From positions 8,804,001-8,868,000 of the forward strand of contig CP109468.1 of assembly GCA_036227345.1 (NCBI GenBank): DNA of 64,000 nucleotides. The letters run 5' to 3'. Source of the DNA: Streptomyces sp. NBC_01463 (lineage in GTDB: Bacteria > Actinomycetota > Actinomycetes > Streptomycetales > Streptomycetaceae). The notes beneath the pieces are model-generated. The model was not told where the DNA came from. It saw only the letters and a list, made by a program, of their open reading frames with translations, and ran no database searches. How positions within the stretch are numbered: position 1 is the stretch's first letter; the number at the start of each line of letters is the position of its first letter. Both the position numbers and the translations under genes were made by a program. Of this stretch, positions 7,987-41,714 are shown piece after piece.

Positions 7987-8138
7987 GGCTTCTCCTTCGT
8001 CGATCACAGCGGCACGGATCCCGGGTTCCGTGATCCCGGGTTCTGCCACGTAGGACTGCCGGGGCTACTGGAACTCATCGCCCTGTACAGCCGCAGCCCG
8101 GACGCAGCCGGTGTGGGCCGACACAGCCGTCCGACGGC

Positions 8139-8167
8139 TTGACAGGCAACCAAATAGTTGCCAATTT
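8139..8167 (+). promoter_or_regulatory. Promoter with palindromic operator for the ArsR-SRPBCC gene
   Basis: A perfect -35 TTGACA (8139-8144) is followed by an inverted repeat GGCAAC-N6-GTTGCC (8145-8162) filling the spacer, with a weak AT-rich -10 (around 8162-8168). An ArsR-family protein bound here would block the promoter, so autorepression by the downstream gene product is the simplest reading. Confidence 0.6.
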
Positions 8168-8198
8168 GTAGGTGAGGGGGATCAGGGGGTCGGGTGGC

Positions 8199-8984
8199 AT
8201 GGACGAGGTGTTCAAGGCGCTCGCGGATGCGAGCCGGAGGCGGCTGCTGGACCGGCTGAACGAGCGGGCCGGGCAGAACCTGGTCGAACTGGGTGCGGGG
8301 CTGGGCATGACCAGGCAGGCGGTGTCCAAGCACTTGGCGGTGCTGGAGGGCGCGGGCCTGATCACGACGGTACGGCGTGGCCGGGAGCGGCTGCACTACC
8401 TCAATCCCGTGCCGATCCACGATCTGGCCGACCGCTGGATCGGCCAGTACGAGCGGGGCCGGATGGCCGCGCTCAGCAACTTGAAGCAGGCCCTGGAAGG
8501 AACGGCGATGAGCAAGCCCGAGTTCGTTTACACGATCTACGTCCACACCACGCCCGAGAAACTCTGGGAGGGGCTCACCAGCCCGGAGTTCCTGAAGCAG
8601 TACCACGGAGGCTGGGCACCCTCCTCCGACTGGAAGGTCGGTTCGAAGGTGCTGTGGCCGGTCGAGGAAGGCGGCGAACCGCAGGACCTCGGCCAGGTCG
8701 TCACCGCGGCGGAACCCGGCAAGCGGCTCGCCTACACCTGGCACACGCTGCAGCCGATGCATCAGGAGATGTTCGGCATGAGCGATGCGGAGTTCGCCGA
8801 GGCGGTCAAGGAACGCTCGACGGTCGCCTTCGACATCGAGCCCGCCGAGGTGGCGGAGGTGGGCGTCAAGCTGACCATCACCCACGACGGCTTCACCTCG
8901 GCCGACTCCAAGATGCTCGAGGGCGTCAGCGGCGGCTGGACCATGATGATGTCGGAACTGAAGACGATCCTGGAGAAGGACTGA
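8199..8984 (+). CDS. ArsR-type regulator fused to SRPBCC (AHSA1-like) domain
   Basis: A 261-residue two-domain protein. Residues 1-95 form an ArsR winged helix (DEVFKALADASRRRLLDRL; recognition helix GMTRQAVSKHLAVLE). Residues about 105-261 form an SRPBCC/AHSA1 ligand-binding domain (FVYTIYVHTTPEKLWEGLTS ... GGWTMMMSELKTILE). Such fusions occur in actinobacteria as presumed self-contained sensor-repressors. The ATG at 8199 is chosen because the winged-helix family start aligns there; an in-frame GTG exists at 8172. The palindrome just upstream is the likely autoregulatory site. The ligand is unknown. The next gene, facing it, encodes a VOC protein. Confidence 0.88.
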   Translation: MDEVFKALADASRRRLLDRLNERAGQNLVELGAGLGMTRQAVSKHLAVLEGAGLITTVRRGRERLHYLNPVPIHDLADRWIGQYERGRMAALSNLKQALEGTAMSKPEFVYTIYVHTTPEKLWEGLTSPEFLKQYHGGWAPSSDWKVGSKVLWPVEEGGEPQDLGQVVTAAEPGKRLAYTWHTLQPMHQEMFGMSDAEFAEAVKERSTVAFDIEPAEVAEVGVKLTITHDGFTSADSKMLEGVSGGWTMMMSELKTILEKD

Positions 8985-9140
8985 CCGCTCCGGTCCCGGA
9001 CGGGCCGGTGCCGAGGGCACACAGCTGACGGAGCATGCCCCGCCGCATCACCTCTGGCGATGTGTGCCGGCGCCGCGAAGGCTCCGCAGAAACCCGGCCC
9101 AACGGTTGACGTCCCCGGTGGGCCGGGTCCCGGCTGCCGG

Positions 9141-9923
9141 TCAGCCCATCCGGGGGTCCGGGGTGAGCAGCGCGAACACGGCGCCCGCCGGGTCCGCGAC
9201 CCAGGCGATCCGGCCGACCTCGGGCACGTCGGCCGCGGGCATCAGCACGGAGCCGCCGTTCGCCGTGACCGCTGCGGTGGTCGCGTCCGCGTCGAGGACG
9301 TGGAAGTACGGCACCCAGCGGGCCTTCTCGCCGTCGCCCGCAAGCGGGGCCGCCCCGCCGAAGGAGCCGTCCTCCTGGTCGCCGTCGGCGATGCTCAGCA
9401 CCCGGTAGGTCATGCCCGGCGCCTGCATCTCCGCCGAGCGCCAGCCGAAGACGCCCGCGTAGAAGCCGATGGCGGCCACCGGATCGGGCACGTGCAGCTC
9501 GGCCCAGATCAGCGTGTTCTCGGCCGATGCCACATCGAACCCGGCCGTGCGGCCGGGCTGCCAGCAGGCGAACTCGGCACCCTGCGGATCGGTGAACTGG
9601 GCAAGCCGGCCCTCGCCCATCACGTCCATCGGCTCCATCCGCACGCTGCCCCCGCCGTCGCGCACGGCGGCGGCGGTGGCCTGCACGTCGGGGGTGTGGA
9701 AGTGCAGCATCCACGCGGAGTCGGCGCCCTCCTCGGTCAGCTGACCGATCGCGGCGACAGTACGGCCCTCGCGCTGGAAGAATCCGTAGCCGCCTGCCTC
9801 CGGTCCGGCCGAGACGAACTGCCAGCCGAGTACGGCTCCGTAGAAGGCGGCGGCCGCGGGAACGTCGGGGCTGCCGAGGTCCAGCCAGTTGGGCGATCCG
9901 GTGCGGAAGTCGGTACCGAGCAT
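9141..9923 (-). CDS. Two-domain VOC (glyoxalase-like) protein
   Basis: A 260-residue protein with AGGAGA 8 bases upstream. It contains two tandem VOC modules (about residues 8-125 and 135-258), each with GSPNWLDLGSPD- or LIWAELHVPDP-type starts and an AVF/FFQREG-DPAGAVFALL-type end. This is the arrangement of the Streptomyces/Mycobacterium CFP30B-like family. VOC proteins bind metals or small hydrophobic ligands and include dioxygenases and resistance proteins; no function can be assigned. No operon partner is evident; the next leftward gene (kinase-MFS) ends 214 bases upstream. Confidence 0.85.
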   Translation of the reverse strand: MLGTDFRTGSPNWLDLGSPDVPAAAAFYGAVLGWQFVSAGPEAGGYGFFQREGRTVAAIGQLTEEGADSAWMLHFHTPDVQATAAAVRDGGGSVRMEPMDVMGEGRLAQFTDPQGAEFACWQPGRTAGFDVASAENTLIWAELHVPDPVAAIGFYAGVFGWRSAEMQAPGMTYRVLSIADGDQEDGSFGGAAPLAGDGEKARWVPYFHVLDADATTAAVTANGGSVLMPAADVPEVGRIAWVADPAGAVFALLTPDPRMG

Positions 9924-10136
9924 TGCGTGCTCTCCTGGGTGAGGTCCGGCGACGTGGCGTCGAACGCTACCCCCTGCTACTGGCCATTGCGCCGAGAGTG
10001 ACGCTCGACGCCCGCGTGTCCTGGAACACCGCCTGGATGCAGCAGATCATCAACAAGGGCCCGCCCCACGGAGAGACGCCGCCCCACGGGCTCGCGCGCC
10101 ACGTGCGCCGAGCCGGACGACTGCGCCCCCGGCCGC

Positions 10137-12614
10137 TCACCGGCCCGGGGGACGCTCCGTGGGTGCCTTGGAGGTGATCAGCAGACCGGTGGCGAGACAG
10201 GCGAGGGCCATGCCGCCGACCGCCCACCAGAGGGCGGTGGAGTAGGCCCCGAACAACACACTCGTCAGGTCGTCGGACGCCGACATATGACGCAGTTCGG
10301 CGACGAGAACGGCGCTGAGCAGCGCGTTGCCGAGCGTCAGGCCCAGTTGATGGCCCGCAGTGACGGCGGCGGAACGCTCACCGGAGAGTCCGGGGCCCGC
10401 GGTCGCGGTGGCGAAGACCGGCGGCAGGGCGAGACCGGTGCCGAAACCGGTGAGGAGCAGGGCGGGCAGCACCTGGGTGACGTAGGCGCCGTCCGGTTCG
10501 AGACGGGTCAGGAGCACCATGCCGAGGGCCGTGATCGCCAGCCCGCTCACGATCAGGCCGCGGGGCGCCACGCGGGGCAGCAACCGGGCGGACACCTGCG
10601 TGGAAGCGATGGCGACCGCGGCGGCCATGGGCAGAAAGGCCACACCGGCCGTGAGAGGGGAGTCGCCGCGGACGCTCCGCAGAAAGAACTCCACGACCGC
10701 GAACGAGGTCATGATTCCGAATCCGGCCAGCAGCACGGCCAGAAACGCGCCGAGGCGGTCGAGCCCCGAGGCGCCGGATTCCTGAGGGAACGGGGCCGTC
10801 CGGACCGTCTGCCGCAGCAGGAAGGCCGCGAGGAGGACCGTGCCCACCGCCAGCAGGGCCAGGACCAGCGGGTCGCTCCAGCCGCGCGGATCGGCCTGGG
10901 TGAGGCCGTAGGAGAGGGCGATGAGCCCACCGGTGCCGAGCAGCATCCCGGCGGTGTCCGGTCGGGCGTCCGTCCGCCCCGGACGCTCATGCACCAGGGT
11001 CGCCGCACCGATCAACGCGACGACGGCGAGGCCGGCGCCGGCGTAGAACGTGACGCGCCACGAGAGCGCGTCGAGCCAACCGGCGGTGAGAAGTCCCAGT
11101 GCCGAGCCGCCACCGGCGACGGCGGCGTAGATCCCGATCGCTCTGCCGCGTTCCTTGGAGCCGGCGAATCCGGTGCTCACCAGGGACAGCGCGGCCGGTG
11201 TGAGCAGCGCGGCGGAGGCGCCCTGGAGGAAGCGGGCCAGGAGCAGCTGCCCGGAACCGCCGGCTACGCCGGCGATCGCGGACGCCAGCACGCATCCGAC
11301 GAGGCCGATGACCAACACACGTCTGGGGCCTGCGCGATCCGCGAGATGCCCACCGATCAGCAGCAGGCCGCCGAAGGACACCGTGTACGCGGTGAACAAC
11401 GAGGTCAGGCCGTCGCCGCTCATCCCCAGGTCGGCCTGGACGGCAGGCGAGGCCATGTTGAAGGCCGTCGCGTCGAACAGCACCATCAGTTGCACCAGGG
11501 CGATCACCGCCAGCCCCCACCAGCGCAGGGGATGCGGCGGCGCCTCGTCCCGAAGGGCGGGGGAGGAGTGGGTGGGCCAGGTCCCCGGGGGCGGCGGCCC
11601 GAATCCCGGTGGCGGGGCGTGCTGCGCCGGGGCCGTCGGAGCGTAGGCGGGCGGCGGGGGCAGCGCGGCCTTGACCAGAAGGTCCGGGCGCACCTCGGGG
11701 GCGTCGACGGGCAGTTCGGGTGCGTAGTCCAGCAGTTGGGCCGCGTGGCGACCGAGTTGCGCGAGGACCGCGCCCGGCAGCCATTCCGCCGTCGAGTCCT
11801 GAGCGGTGCGCGCGGCCACCTCCTGGGGGGTGGGCCTCTTCGCGGGGTCCTTCTCCAGGCACGCGCGTACGAGATCGGCCAGGCTCGCCGGCACGCCGGT
11901 GAGGTCGGGCTCGTCCTCGGCGATCCGGAACAGATGGGCAGGCAGGCCGGTGTCGGCAGCGCCGAAGAGCAGACGCCCGGTGGCCGCGTGGACGAGGACC
12001 GCCCCCAGGCAGAAGATGTCGCTGGCCGGGGTGAGGTCGAGGCCGCGGACCTGTTCCGGCGACATGAAGCCCGGGGAACCGATCAACATGCCCGTGCGCG
12101 TGTGCAGGCTGTCCCCGGCGAGGCTGTCCATGGCCCGGGCGATGCCGAAGTCGATGACCCGGGGCCCGTCGACGGTGACCAGGACGTTGGACGGCTTGAG
12201 GTCACGGTGGATCAGACCCGCCTCGTGCACCGCCTGCAGAGCGAGGGCGAGGCGGTTGGCGAGAGTGCGGACCGAGTGCTCGGGCAAGGGGCCGAAGTCC
12301 TTGGAGACCACGGTGCTCAGGTCGGGGCCCGGGATGTACTGGGTCGCCACCCAGGGGACCGCGGCGTCGGGATCCGCGTCGAGCACCTCCGCGGTCCAGC
12401 GGCCGCCCACCCGGCGCGCGGCCGCCACTTCACGGGCGAATCGCCTGCGGAACTCCTGGTTCCCCGCGTACTCGGCCTGCACGACCTTGACGGCCACGGT
12501 GCGTCCGGCTTCGGACCGGCCCAGATAGACCAGGCCCATGCCGCCCTCGCCCAGCCGGGCGATCAGACGGTACGGGCCCAGCCGGGCCGGGTCTTCGGAG
12601 GTCAGAGGATTCAC
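10137..12614 (-). CDS. Ser/Thr protein kinase fused to a DHA2-type MFS transporter
   Basis: One uninterrupted 825-residue frame. Residues 12-270 are a complete Hanks-type kinase: glycine loop LGEGGMGLVY (21-30), Lys43, HRDLKPSNV (136-144), DFG (155-157) and SPGFMSPEQ (180-188). A Pro-rich linker (about 318-350) leads to an MFS transporter of about 14 helices (about 364-815), with motif A-like GGHLADRAGPRR and LDATAFN-like DATAFNMASPAV in helix 1. The kinase domain would be cytoplasmic, attached to the N-terminal side of the exporter. The GTG start has no Shine-Dalgarno, but TATCTT lies 7 bases upstream, so the mRNA may be leaderless. Substrate and phosphorylation target are unknown. The fusion is seen directly; assembly error is unlikely because the frame is continuous. 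Confidence 0.9.
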   Translation of the reverse strand: MNPLTSEDPARLGPYRLIARLGEGGMGLVYLGRSEAGRTVAVKVVQAEYAGNQEFRRRFAREVAAARRVGGRWTAEVLDADPDAAVPWVATQYIPGPDLSTVVSKDFGPLPEHSVRTLANRLALALQAVHEAGLIHRDLKPSNVLVTVDGPRVIDFGIARAMDSLAGDSLHTRTGMLIGSPGFMSPEQVRGLDLTPASDIFCLGAVLVHAATGRLLFGAADTGLPAHLFRIAEDEPDLTGVPASLADLVRACLEKDPAKRPTPQEVAARTAQDSTAEWLPGAVLAQLGRHAAQLLDYAPELPVDAPEVRPDLLVKAALPPPPAYAPTAPAQHAPPPGFGPPPPGTWPTHSSPALRDEAPPHPLRWWGLAVIALVQLMVLFDATAFNMASPAVQADLGMSGDGLTSLFTAYTVSFGGLLLIGGHLADRAGPRRVLVIGLVGCVLASAIAGVAGGSGQLLLARFLQGASAALLTPAALSLVSTGFAGSKERGRAIGIYAAVAGGGSALGLLTAGWLDALSWRVTFYAGAGLAVVALIGAATLVHERPGRTDARPDTAGMLLGTGGLIALSYGLTQADPRGWSDPLVLALLAVGTVLLAAFLLRQTVRTAPFPQESGASGLDRLGAFLAVLLAGFGIMTSFAVVEFFLRSVRGDSPLTAGVAFLPMAAAVAIASTQVSARLLPRVAPRGLIVSGLAITALGMVLLTRLEPDGAYVTQVLPALLLTGFGTGLALPPVFATATAGPGLSGERSAAVTAGHQLGLTLGNALLSAVLVAELRHMSASDDLTSVLFGAYSTALWWAVGGMALACLATGLLITSKAPTERPPGR

Positions 12615-12621
12615 GAGGAGT

Positions 12622-12642
12622 AAGATAGGCCAACTATCCTAT
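12622..12642 (-). promoter_or_regulatory. Candidate -10 and nested operator of the kinase-MFS gene
   Basis: On the minus strand TATCTT ends 7 bases before the GTG start, as expected for a leaderless promoter. Two nested inverted repeats overlap it: GATAG-N5-CTATC (12624-12638) and ATAGG-N8-CCTAT (12625-12642). I see no good -35. No regulator gene is adjacent, so a distant repressor or activator would have to bind. Confidence 0.4.
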
Positions 12643-35084: not shown

Positions 35085-36566
35085 TCAGTGGCCCACCAGC
35101 ACGGTCGGGTCCGCGTTCTTGACCTTCCTGCGCGGCAGGAAGGCGGCCGGGGCCAGGCAGAAGGCGATCAGGACGGTCGCCACCAGGAACACCGAGGCGA
35201 ACGCGTCACCCATCTGTGCCTGAATCCCGGAAGGCGTGGTCGCGTCGACGTCCTTGAGGCCGTTGGTGAGGAGCACCGAGAAGAGGGCGGTGCCGATCGA
35301 GGCCGCGACCTGCTGGACGATGTTCATCAGCGTCGAGCCGCGGGCGACGTTGTGGTCCGTCAGAGTCGCCAGCGCCGATGCCATGATCGGCATCATCGAG
35401 GCACCCATTCCGAGGCCCATCACGAAGAGCGCGGTGATGATGTACGCGTAGGACGTGTCGGAGGCCAGCTGCGTGAACATCCCCATGCCGACCGTGATCA
35501 CCGCGATGCCGGTCAACACGATCTTGCCGGGGCCGATCCGGTCGGCGAGCATGCCGGCGATCGGCATCGTGATCATCGCCCCCACGCCCTGCGGTGCGAG
35601 GAGGAGTCCGGAGTCCAGCGCCGACTCGCCGCGCACCTGCTGGAAGTAGAGCGGGAACAGCAGGCTGGCGCCGAAGAACGCGACGGCGAACAGCGACATC
35701 GCGATCACCGAGATGCTCATGTCCCGGTTGAGGAACAGGCGCAGGTCGACCAGCGGGTGAAGGTTGCGCCGGTGCAGGGCCCACGGCACGAACGCGATGA
35801 TGAGCACCAGCCCTATGCCTGCGGGAACCAGCACCTTGGCGGCCCAGACCGTTCCGGTCTCGGGTATGGACGAGACGCCGTACAGGAAGGTCGCGAGCCC
35901 CGGCGAAAGCATCACCATGCCGAGCCAGTCGAAGGTCTCCGACGGCTGCACACGGTCCTTGGGCAGAACGATCGCCGCATAGGCCAGGGCGATCGCACCG
36001 ATCGGTACGTTGATCAGGAAGATCCAGTGCCACGAGGCGGCGTCGATCAGCCAGCCACCGAGGATGGGACCGAAGATCGGGCCGAGCAGCATCGGGATGC
36101 CGAGTACTGCCATCACCCGGCCGACCCGCTCGGGGCCCGCGGCACGCGTCAGGATCGTCATGCCGAGAGGCATCAACATGCCGCCGCCGAGGCCCTGGAG
36201 GACGCGGAACGTCACGAGCATCTCGAGCGAGGTGGCGGCAGCGCACAGCGCGGAGCCGGCGGCGAACAGCACGATCGCCAGGAGGTAGAGACGTTTGGTG
36301 CCGAACCTGTCGGCCGCCCAGCCGGTGAGCGGGATGACGCTCGCCAGAGCCAGGGTGTAGCCCGTCATCGTCCAGGCCACCTGGGCCGAGGTCGCGTGGA
36401 ACTCCTTCTGGAACGTCTGCAGTCCGACCGACACCACCGTGATGTCGAGGATCGACATGATCCCGCCCAGCACGATGACGCCGGCCACGAGGAGAACGCT
36501 CTTGTCCAGGCGGTCTTGGGAGTCGGCCTTGGGGGGACTGCTCTCGCTTTGTTGTGAAGCGGTCAC
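35085..36566 (-). CDS. DHA2-family MFS multidrug exporter
   Basis: A 493-residue protein with about 14 predicted helices. Motif D1 and antiporter features are visible: MSILDITVVSVGLQTF in helix 1, GWAADRFGTKRLYL (motif A), LGIPMLLGPIFGPILGGWL (motif C) and a long central loop LHRRNLHPLVDLRLFLNRD. This is the EmrB/QacA (DHA2) proton-antiporter family. GTG at 36566 with AAAGG 9 bases upstream. No regulator gene is adjacent, but an imperfect palindrome lies upstream (36739-36759). Confidence 0.9.
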   Translation of the reverse strand: MTASQQSESSPPKADSQDRLDKSVLLVAGVIVLGGIMSILDITVVSVGLQTFQKEFHATSAQVAWTMTGYTLALASVIPLTGWAADRFGTKRLYLLAIVLFAAGSALCAAATSLEMLVTFRVLQGLGGGMLMPLGMTILTRAAGPERVGRVMAVLGIPMLLGPIFGPILGGWLIDAASWHWIFLINVPIGAIALAYAAIVLPKDRVQPSETFDWLGMVMLSPGLATFLYGVSSIPETGTVWAAKVLVPAGIGLVLIIAFVPWALHRRNLHPLVDLRLFLNRDMSISVIAMSLFAVAFFGASLLFPLYFQQVRGESALDSGLLLAPQGVGAMITMPIAGMLADRIGPGKIVLTGIAVITVGMGMFTQLASDTSYAYIITALFVMGLGMGASMMPIMASALATLTDHNVARGSTLMNIVQQVAASIGTALFSVLLTNGLKDVDATTPSGIQAQMGDAFASVFLVATVLIAFCLAPAAFLPRRKVKNADPTVLVGH

Positions 36567-40211: not shown

Positions 40212-41714
40212 GTGCGTGACCCATCTCCCACCCCCGACGAGACGACCGAGCCCTACCGGTGGCGCTGGCTGATCCTGGCAGTGATGATCGTCGCGGAGAT
40301 CATGGATCTCCTGGACGCCTCGATCGTCAACGTCGCCGGACCGGACCTGGAGAAATCGCTCGGGGCCGGTTCCGTCGGACTGCAGTGGGTGATCGGCGGC
40401 TACGCCCTCACCCTGGGCGCCGGCCTCGTGCTCGGAGGCCGGCTCGGCGACCGGTACGGCCGGCGTCGGATGTTCCTGATCGGCCTGGCCGCCTTCACCG
40501 CGGCCTCGCTTCTGTGTGCGATCGCGCCGAACATCGAGTCGCTGATCGCCTTCCGCCTGCTGCAGGGCATCGCCGGAGCGATGCTGCTGCCCCAGGGCCT
40601 GGGCCTGCTGCGGGAGAACTTCTCCGGCCCCGAGCTCACCAAGGTCTTCGCGATCTTCGGACCGGTCCTCGGTCTGGGCGGCATCATCGGCCCGGTCCTG
40701 GGCGGCTTCCTCATCGAGGGCGACTTCTTCGGCCTGGGCTGGAGGTCGGTGTTCCTGGTCAACCTGCCCATCGGAATCGCGGCGCTGGTCGTCGCCGCGA
40801 AGTTCGTGCCCAGGAAGGCGGGCGACCGAACGGTACGGGTCGACATGACCGGGGCCGCCCTGGTCGTGATGTCCTGCGCCCTGCTGGTGCTGCCGCTGAA
40901 CCAGGGACAGGAGAACGGCTGGCCGCTGTGGACGTGGCTGTCCATGGCCGCCTCGGCGATCGGTTTCGCCCTCTTCGCCCTCCAGCAGCGCCGCACGGCC
41001 GCCGCGGGCCGCGAGCCGCTGGTGACCCCGGGCCTGCTCCGCAAGCCGGCCTTCACCGTCGGCCTCAGCGGAATCGCTCTGTTCTTCGGCGGACTGATCG
41101 GCACCCAGCTCGTGCTGACCCTGTTCCTCCAGATCGGCCGGCACTTCACCGCCGGTGAGGCGGGACTCGGCAACCTGCCCCTCGCGGTGGGCACCGCGAT
41201 CGGGGGCGCCATCAGCGGAGCGTTCCTCGCGGACAGGATCGGCCGCAAGGTGCTGCAGATCGGACCACTGATTCAGCTGTGCGGCGCCGCCGTGCTGTGG
41301 TTCGAACTGGACGGCCTCGACGCAGCCTCGTTCTCGATCTGGGACATCGTTCCCGGCGTGGCGGTGGCGGGCATCGGCGCCGGCATGGTGATCGCCGCCC
41401 TGTTCAGCTTCATCCTGGCCGCAGTCGACGACGACGAGATCGGATCCGCCTCCGGTGTCCTTTCGGCGGTCCAGGCGGTCGGCGGCTCCATCGGCGTCGC
41501 GGTCTTCGGCTCGGTGTTCTTCGCCCGGGCCGAGACCGGTGACTTCACCGGCGGCTTCCACCGCGCGCTGATCGTCCAGGCATGTCTGCTGCTGGTCTTC
41601 CTCGCCATCACCTTCCTGCTGCCCAAGAACGCCCGTCCTGAAGAAGAACAGCACGGCATTGCACCTGAGGCCGCTGCCGGCGGCTCCGTCACCAAGCAGC
41701 ACCTCACCGCGTGA
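40212..41714 (+). CDS. DHA2-family MFS exporter
   Basis: A 500-residue 14-helix transporter. It has IMDLLDASIVNVAGPDLEKSLG in helix 1, LVLGGRLGDRYGRRRMFLIG (motif A), FGPVLGLGGIIGPVLGGFLI (motif C) and ADRIGRKVLQIG. GTG at 40212 is preferred over ATG 40197 because GGAGGT (40199-40204) lies 7 bases before it. Regulation by the divergent MarR protein is likely; the exported compound is unknown. Confidence 0.9.
   Translation: MRDPSPTPDETTEPYRWRWLILAVMIVAEIMDLLDASIVNVAGPDLEKSLGAGSVGLQWVIGGYALTLGAGLVLGGRLGDRYGRRRMFLIGLAAFTAASLLCAIAPNIESLIAFRLLQGIAGAMLLPQGLGLLRENFSGPELTKVFAIFGPVLGLGGIIGPVLGGFLIEGDFFGLGWRSVFLVNLPIGIAALVVAAKFVPRKAGDRTVRVDMTGAALVVMSCALLVLPLNQGQENGWPLWTWLSMAASAIGFALFALQQRRTAAAGREPLVTPGLLRKPAFTVGLSGIALFFGGLIGTQLVLTLFLQIGRHFTAGEAGLGNLPLAVGTAIGGAISGAFLADRIGRKVLQIGPLIQLCGAAVLWFELDGLDAASFSIWDIVPGVAVAGIGAGMVIAALFSFILAAVDDDEIGSASGVLSAVQAVGGSIGVAVFGSVFFARAETGDFTGGFHRALIVQACLLLVFLAITFLLPKNARPEEEQHGIAPEAAAGGSVTKQHLTA

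Follow-up and report, generated by a model that had tools for sequence, protein, structure and literature searches.

The window, a stretch of 64,000 nucleotides from Streptomyces sp. NBC_01463, carries a gene whose single polypeptide joins a Hanks-type Ser/Thr kinase, through a Pro-rich linker, to a membrane part of the major facilitator superfamily (MFS) (Table 1). The frame, as read in the window, is unbroken from its GTG start and has zero internal stops. It is the single full-length fusion of its genome and lies at 8.81 Mb, near one end of the 9.01-Mb contig. The TATCTT box next to the GTG suggests a possible promoter and leaderless transcription and translation; a scan for the sigma-70 consensus upstream of the gene returned zero sites. 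Elsewhere in the window, two stand-alone MFS genes (35193-36482, minus strand, and 40224-41528, plus strand) match the fused MFS weakly (25 and 31% identity).

Table 1. Features of the kinase-MFS fusion gene, in window coordinates.
Feature	Position	Strand	Basis
Kinase-MFS fusion gene, 825 aa	10137..12614	-	GTG start; stop 10137-10139
TATCTT box, 7 nt ahead of GTG	12622..12627	-	Exact TATCTT near start in 5/20 relatives shown
Hanks-type Ser/Thr kinase domain, residues 15-267	11814..12572	-	Pfam Pkinase; 16 invariant positions
Conserved kinase tail, residues 268-300 (EWLPGAVLAQLGRHAAQLLDYAP)	11715..11813	-	Alignment
Variable Pro-rich linker, residues 301-360	11535..11714	-	Alignment
PAYAPT (PxYxP motif in linker), residues 322-327	11634..11651	-	PxYxP in 178/191 fusions
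DHA2-type MFS domain, 14 helices, residues 364-812	10179..11525	-	AlphaFold2 model, Pfam, Foldseek EfpA
D381 of TM1, aligned with DHA2 coupling Asp (QacA D34)	11472..11474	-	Alignment
Residues 646-648, TM9 end, stop point of short members	10671..10679	-	MFS-model match, AlphaFold2 helices

The kinase domain is intact. It matches Pfam Pkinase with 130.9 bits (cut-off 31.7), and its sequence has the kinase fold, catalytic Lys, HRD, DFG and APE-type Glu expected of the Hanks type, from which kinase activity is predicted. Sixteen kinase positions were checked, including K43, E62, H136-R137-D138, K140, N143, D155-F156-G157 and T172/T174 of the activation loop, and none varies among the 191 listed relatives, which agrees with the preliminary description, where all catalytic residues were said to be present. 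The best NCBIfam model for residues 1-295 is AfsK (NF053615), which covers the kinase part only and scores 291.6 against a cut-off of 1300. Over the whole window protein, Pfam reports only kinase-type and MFS families, with no PQQ repeats and none of the SLC5, STAC or histidine kinase domains of the CbrA type.

The membrane part matches Pfam MFS_1 over residues 371-762 (135.6 bits, cut-off 33.4), and the AlphaFold2 model places 14 helices between residues 364 and 812, as expected of the 14-helix MFS proteins of the DHA2 class. The confidence of this model (mean pLDDT 61.6) is uneven: pLDDT is mostly 70-93 in the membrane part and mostly below 50 in the kinase part, so that the kinase model is not usable. 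The top four Foldseek matches of the model are EfpA structures, with TM-scores by target of 0.83-0.85, and QacA was also matched. Among NCBIfam models, EmrB (TIGR00711) is the best for the membrane part, at 143.6, below its cut-off of 230.2. The window protein reaches neither curated family, AfsK nor EmrB. The absence of the Pro of motif C was considered as a sign of lost antiport and then dropped, as the aligned stretch of EfpA also lacks it. The unbroken frame, Pfam and the AlphaFold2 model thus bear out the architecture first described, i.e., a Hanks kinase, a Pro-rich linker and an MFS part of about 14 helices in one polypeptide.

Among the matches listed, we collected 191 non-redundant kinase-MFS relatives, 139 full-length and 52 shorter. 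In the first protein search, the best 120 of 5541 matches all carry kinase and MFS Pfam marks; those with a named organism come from Streptomyces, save one from Peterkaempfera. The matches listed in the genome scan add Kitasatospora (L034), Streptacidiphilus (L018) and one record labelled Microtetraspora (L031). At a threshold of E 1e-130, which may miss diverged or short members, 9 of 51 genomes drawn within the genus had a match, and 8 of these 9 matches span kinase and MFS; an order-wide draw matched 1 of 50 genomes, the window's own. Pooled over distinct genomes, the draws give 9/85 within the genus and 0/15 outside. By these sequence comparisons, the fusion is a genuine Streptomycetaceae family. 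The gene is accessory and its neighbours are not conserved: across the gene neighbourhoods of 28 fusion loci, no gene family besides the fusion recurs in more than 3 of the 28. Hence, no partner gene hints at the ligand or the target. The preliminary description had named a frame break or assembly error, or a lack of orthologous fusions, as findings that would speak against it. None was observed: the frame is unbroken, and the 139 full-length and 52 short relatives listed share the layout, which refutes an artefact of assembly or annotation. We found nothing in support of such an artefact, and its likelihood is negligible. Two records deserve mention. The L031 record, labelled Microtetraspora glauca, holds a Streptomyces-like short fusion (kinase 86%), by transfer or because the record is mislabelled, and in L012 (7983-8609 and on, plus strand) the reading frame of a long-type fusion is interrupted behind the first part of the kinase, through decay or a sequence error.

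Related kinases carry other modules, or none. We scanned nine of them that lack the MFS with Pfam: one has OpuAC (L035), two have DUF4328 (L037, L038) and six have no further family. In L035 (7992-10049, plus strand), the partner of a kinase 76% identical to the window kinase domain is OpuAC, a binding domain of the glycine-betaine type, and in L037 (7764-9860, plus strand) and L038 (7923-9923, plus strand) the kinases are joined to multi-helix DUF4328. The linker of the fusions is variable except for the PxYxP motif, directly followed by Thr in 166/191 listed fusions. Of 10 non-MFS kinases, 9 lack this motif, and in the remaining one a similar string occurs at a position remote from the linker. 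The motif could act as a phosphosite or in docking.

The lengths of the 191 listed fusions fall into two classes, 139 long (815-903 aa) and 52 short (608-673 aa), with zero intermediates. In 50 of the 52 short members, the match to the MFS model stops just past TM9, at position 274-288 of a model longer than 470 positions; the remaining two have an additional weak MFS match further on. TM10-14 are thus absent in 52/191 listed fusions, and a structure model of the short form, of low confidence (mean pLDDT 55.2), has nine membrane helices. We sought the second MFS half downstream of five short loci (L021, L024, L025, L026 and L031, each at about 8000-10000, plus strand) and found no positive-scoring forward frame within 4 kb. 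L024 also has a separate, almost complete MFS gene on the opposite strand, some 1.6 kb beyond the short fusion. L026 is from Streptomyces sp. ISL-43, a strain that also has a long-type match (L012). In a kinase tree of 139 rows (all 52 short members, one in three of the 139 long ones, P0001 and 40 loci), one branch (SH-aLRT 91) sets the short form (57 of the 139 rows) apart from all other rows, which amounts to a single change. Comparisons between short members give NG86 dN/dS values of 0.56-1.07 in the membrane part. Ordinary alternating access is difficult to reconcile with a conserved half-carrier, unless the half-carrier pairs with itself or with another protein.

We compared rates of change using reciprocal-best genes between the window genome and those of Streptomyces sp. 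or43 and Streptomyces sp. TSRI0281 (27 own loci, 30 per other genome). The NG86 values are rough in GC-rich DNA, with a bias that is common to all parts compared. Relative to or43, dN is 0.028 in the kinase (dS 0.34) and 0.156 in the fused MFS (dS 0.32); for the stand-alone DHA2 genes of this genome pair (16 pairs), the median is 0.037 and the maximum 0.106. Relative to TSRI0281, the kinase has a dN of 0.063 and the fused MFS 0.297, and the stand-alone DHA2 genes (8 pairs) have a median of 0.084 and a maximum of 0.129. Hence, the kinase is nearly frozen and the fused MFS changes at 3.5-4.2 times the median stand-alone DHA2 rate in the same genome pairs. For comparison, the C-terminal parts of single-helix kinases have dN of 0.208, 0.369 and 0.184 in or43 and of 0.396, 0.331 and 0.326 in TSRI0281, two or43 kinase pairs (60 and 46% identity) having been set aside as not orthologous. 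The fused MFS is above all 24 stand-alone DHA2 pairs and slightly below all six kinase tails, and in its evolution it thus resembles a sensor more than a transporter. Among the long members, the mean share is 89% for the kinase, 60% for TM1-6, 54% for TM7-8 and 51% for TM9-14.

Variation in the membrane part leans towards the outside. With helix sides assigned on the basis of an inside N-terminus, the mean entropy of outer and inner helix halves is 1.56 vs 1.06 in the 139 long members (p = 2e-8) and 1.41 vs 1.02 in the 52 short ones (p = 6e-4); it is 0.237 vs 0.216 in the 120 listed stand-alone relatives (p = 0.15). The latter family comprises the own-genome relative of highest identity (42%) and its listed members (n = 120). 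Because the families differ in depth, it is fairer to compare the ratios, 1.47 for the long fusions and 1.10 for the stand-alone relatives. One direct pair shows a clear outer bias (60/187 vs 35/186, p = 0.004); in the second, the bias does not reach significance (76/187 vs 60/186, p = 0.11). The L100/L142 pair (195 codons) is within the 16 rate pairs and was excluded from the side count (15 pairs).

The residues involved in transport coupling are unevenly kept. In QacA, D34 of TM1 contacts R114 and Y63, according to the relevant passage of PMC10425836. By alignment, these three correspond to D381, R461 and Y410, and the window protein has them all (TM1 Asp, TM4 Arg and TM2 Tyr). Residue 381 is acidic in 85/139 long members, leaving 54/139 without the TM1 carboxylate, and the TM1 Asp is found in 120/120 listed stand-alone relatives. 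Acid, Tyr and Arg occur together in 80/139 long members, and in 17/139 every helix core is free of acidic residues. Arg461 is lost in 18 of the 54 long members lacking the TM1 acid vs 1 of the 85 having it (p = 7e-8, which is too strong since the rows are related). On the MFS tree, the acid/non-acid state changed 11 times, with at least six changes forced by well-supported branches. Asp381 is kept in 51/52 short members, the clade least able to transport, so this residue may have a structural or sensing role. On the cytoplasmic side, G421, D426, R489 and D553 are each present in 139/139 long members. Having retained its coupling residues, the window protein may still transport.

How can these observations be reconciled? 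One could think of a functional exporter under the control of its own kinase, where an intracellular cue would lead to phosphorylation of the linker or of cytoplasmic loops and thereby switch efflux, and where fast change would reflect new drug substrates. The complete 14-helix fold of the AlphaFold2 model, the coupling trio of the window protein and of 80 long members, the conserved Thr of the linker motif and the fact that the nearest solved relative, EfpA, is a pump are all consistent with it. We nevertheless regard it as unlikely, given that the short clade lacks TM10-14, that many long members are devoid of the TM1 acid and some of any acid in a helix core, and that the stand-alone exporters of the same genomes are far slower in every pair. 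The MFS part could also be functionally independent of the kinase, either as a decaying passenger or as a mere membrane anchor. Its high dN, the dN/dS values between short members and the loss of the entire C-terminal half in the short clade would fit such a state. Yet the frame, the helices and the four cytoplasmic-side residues are retained in all long members, there are no intermediates between the two length classes, and a single helix suffices as an anchor, as in the kin kinases, which makes this account improbable.

The reading that we favor, with a probability of roughly one half (0.52), is that of a transmembrane Ser/Thr receptor kinase, or transceptor, whose sensor is a DHA2-type MFS fold. 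It is favored by the asymmetry of rates, the extracellular bias of variation, the half-MFS clade, the lost TM1 carboxylates, the swapped modules and the conserved linker motif, and suggests that the MFS part often serves the kinase as a sensor, not as a pump. The preliminary description had proposed a transporter-receptor kinase; its receptor side gains from these data, and the coupling between the two parts is putative. A small, probably lipophilic molecule would bind in the cavity of the MFS, coming from outside or from the membrane. The inward/outward rocking of the carrier would then be relayed through G421, D426, R489 and D553 and would alter kinase packing or dimerization across the linker. 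The kinase would autophosphorylate at T172/T174 and then phosphorylate cytosolic targets. Some members, perhaps including the window protein, may still transport and be true transceptors; others look sensor-only.

Several observations count against the receptor kinase. The window protein has the D381/Y410/R461 trio, as do the many long members with acid, Tyr and Arg, and the short clade, the least transport-capable, retains Asp381 almost throughout. In both genome pairs, the fused MFS is slightly slower than the kinase tails, and fast change can also result from relaxed constraint, as the dN/dS values of the short members' membrane part illustrate. Finally, for the second genome pair the outer bias falls short of significance, and the 28 loci give no neighbour hint. 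Overall, the initial observation was right and its interpretation is plausible, strengthened by the sequence comparisons but not proven. More tentatively, and at somewhat less than even odds, Streptomycetaceae Ser/Thr receptor kinases may have turned the DHA2 exporter fold (nine helices in one clade) into a fast-diversifying ligand sensor, wiring a near-constant kinase to many chemical inputs, with many members no longer pumping. A Ser/Thr fusion that comes both with a full and with a half carrier, in antibiotic makers, would allow a direct test of the passage from carrier to receptor, and could show which small molecules antibiotic-making bacteria sense.

The architecture already has names. 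NCBI calls some members "bifunctional serine/threonine protein kinase/MFS transporter", and TCDB has a class 2.A.1.34, "Sensor Kinase-MFS Fusion" (SK-MFS), of unknown substrate, with one S. coelicolor member counted in the table of PMC3924187. The likeness to this class is by name only, as a kinase-MFS fusion, the kinase type being unstated there; the half-MFS form is unmentioned in that table passage. Our searches of open-licence papers found no experimental study of the Ser/Thr kinase-MFS type; the words MFS, transporter and bifunctional do not occur in PMC9600765, and "facilitator", "permease" and "efflux" each occur 0 times in the main text of PMC1262709. The system is thus under-described, as proposed, in terms of experimental work in the literature searched, but not in terms of its architecture.

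Transporter-kinase fusions are called rare in the relevant part of PMC13022988, where the case with a structure, CbrA of Pseudomonas, is an SLC5-STAC-histidine kinase whose carrier motions are proposed to reach the kinase. The window protein likewise has transporter and kinase in one chain, i.e., the layout of a transceptor in the broad sense. It differs in order and type: CbrA has an N-terminal SLC5, a STAC linker and a histidine kinase, whereas here the Ser/Thr kinase comes first and the DHA2 carrier last. The membrane part finds its best match, by structure and by PDB sequence, in EfpA of Mycobacterium, a DHA2-type proposed lipid transporter that has no kinase; identity across the Foldseek alignments is 27-29%. 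AfsK and other Streptomyces receptor kinases also have an N-terminal kinase and a C-terminal sensor-like part, which in AfsK consists of PQQ repeats (PMC1262709, in the part on this protein) and here of an MFS domain. Another parallel is found in the Ser/Thr kinases with solute-binding domains (S. coelicolor, PMC1262709; OpuAC in L035), which combine a kinase with a transport-derived binding module, carried on a single helix rather than being a polytopic carrier. The fusion is a variant of the transceptor idea, not a new category. What is new here is the near-frozen kinase with a fast MFS, the extracellular-leaning variation, the half-transporter clade, the lost TM1 carboxylates and the other modules on kin kinases. 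Among these, it is the half-transporter clade and the sensor-like evolution that would surprise a specialist.
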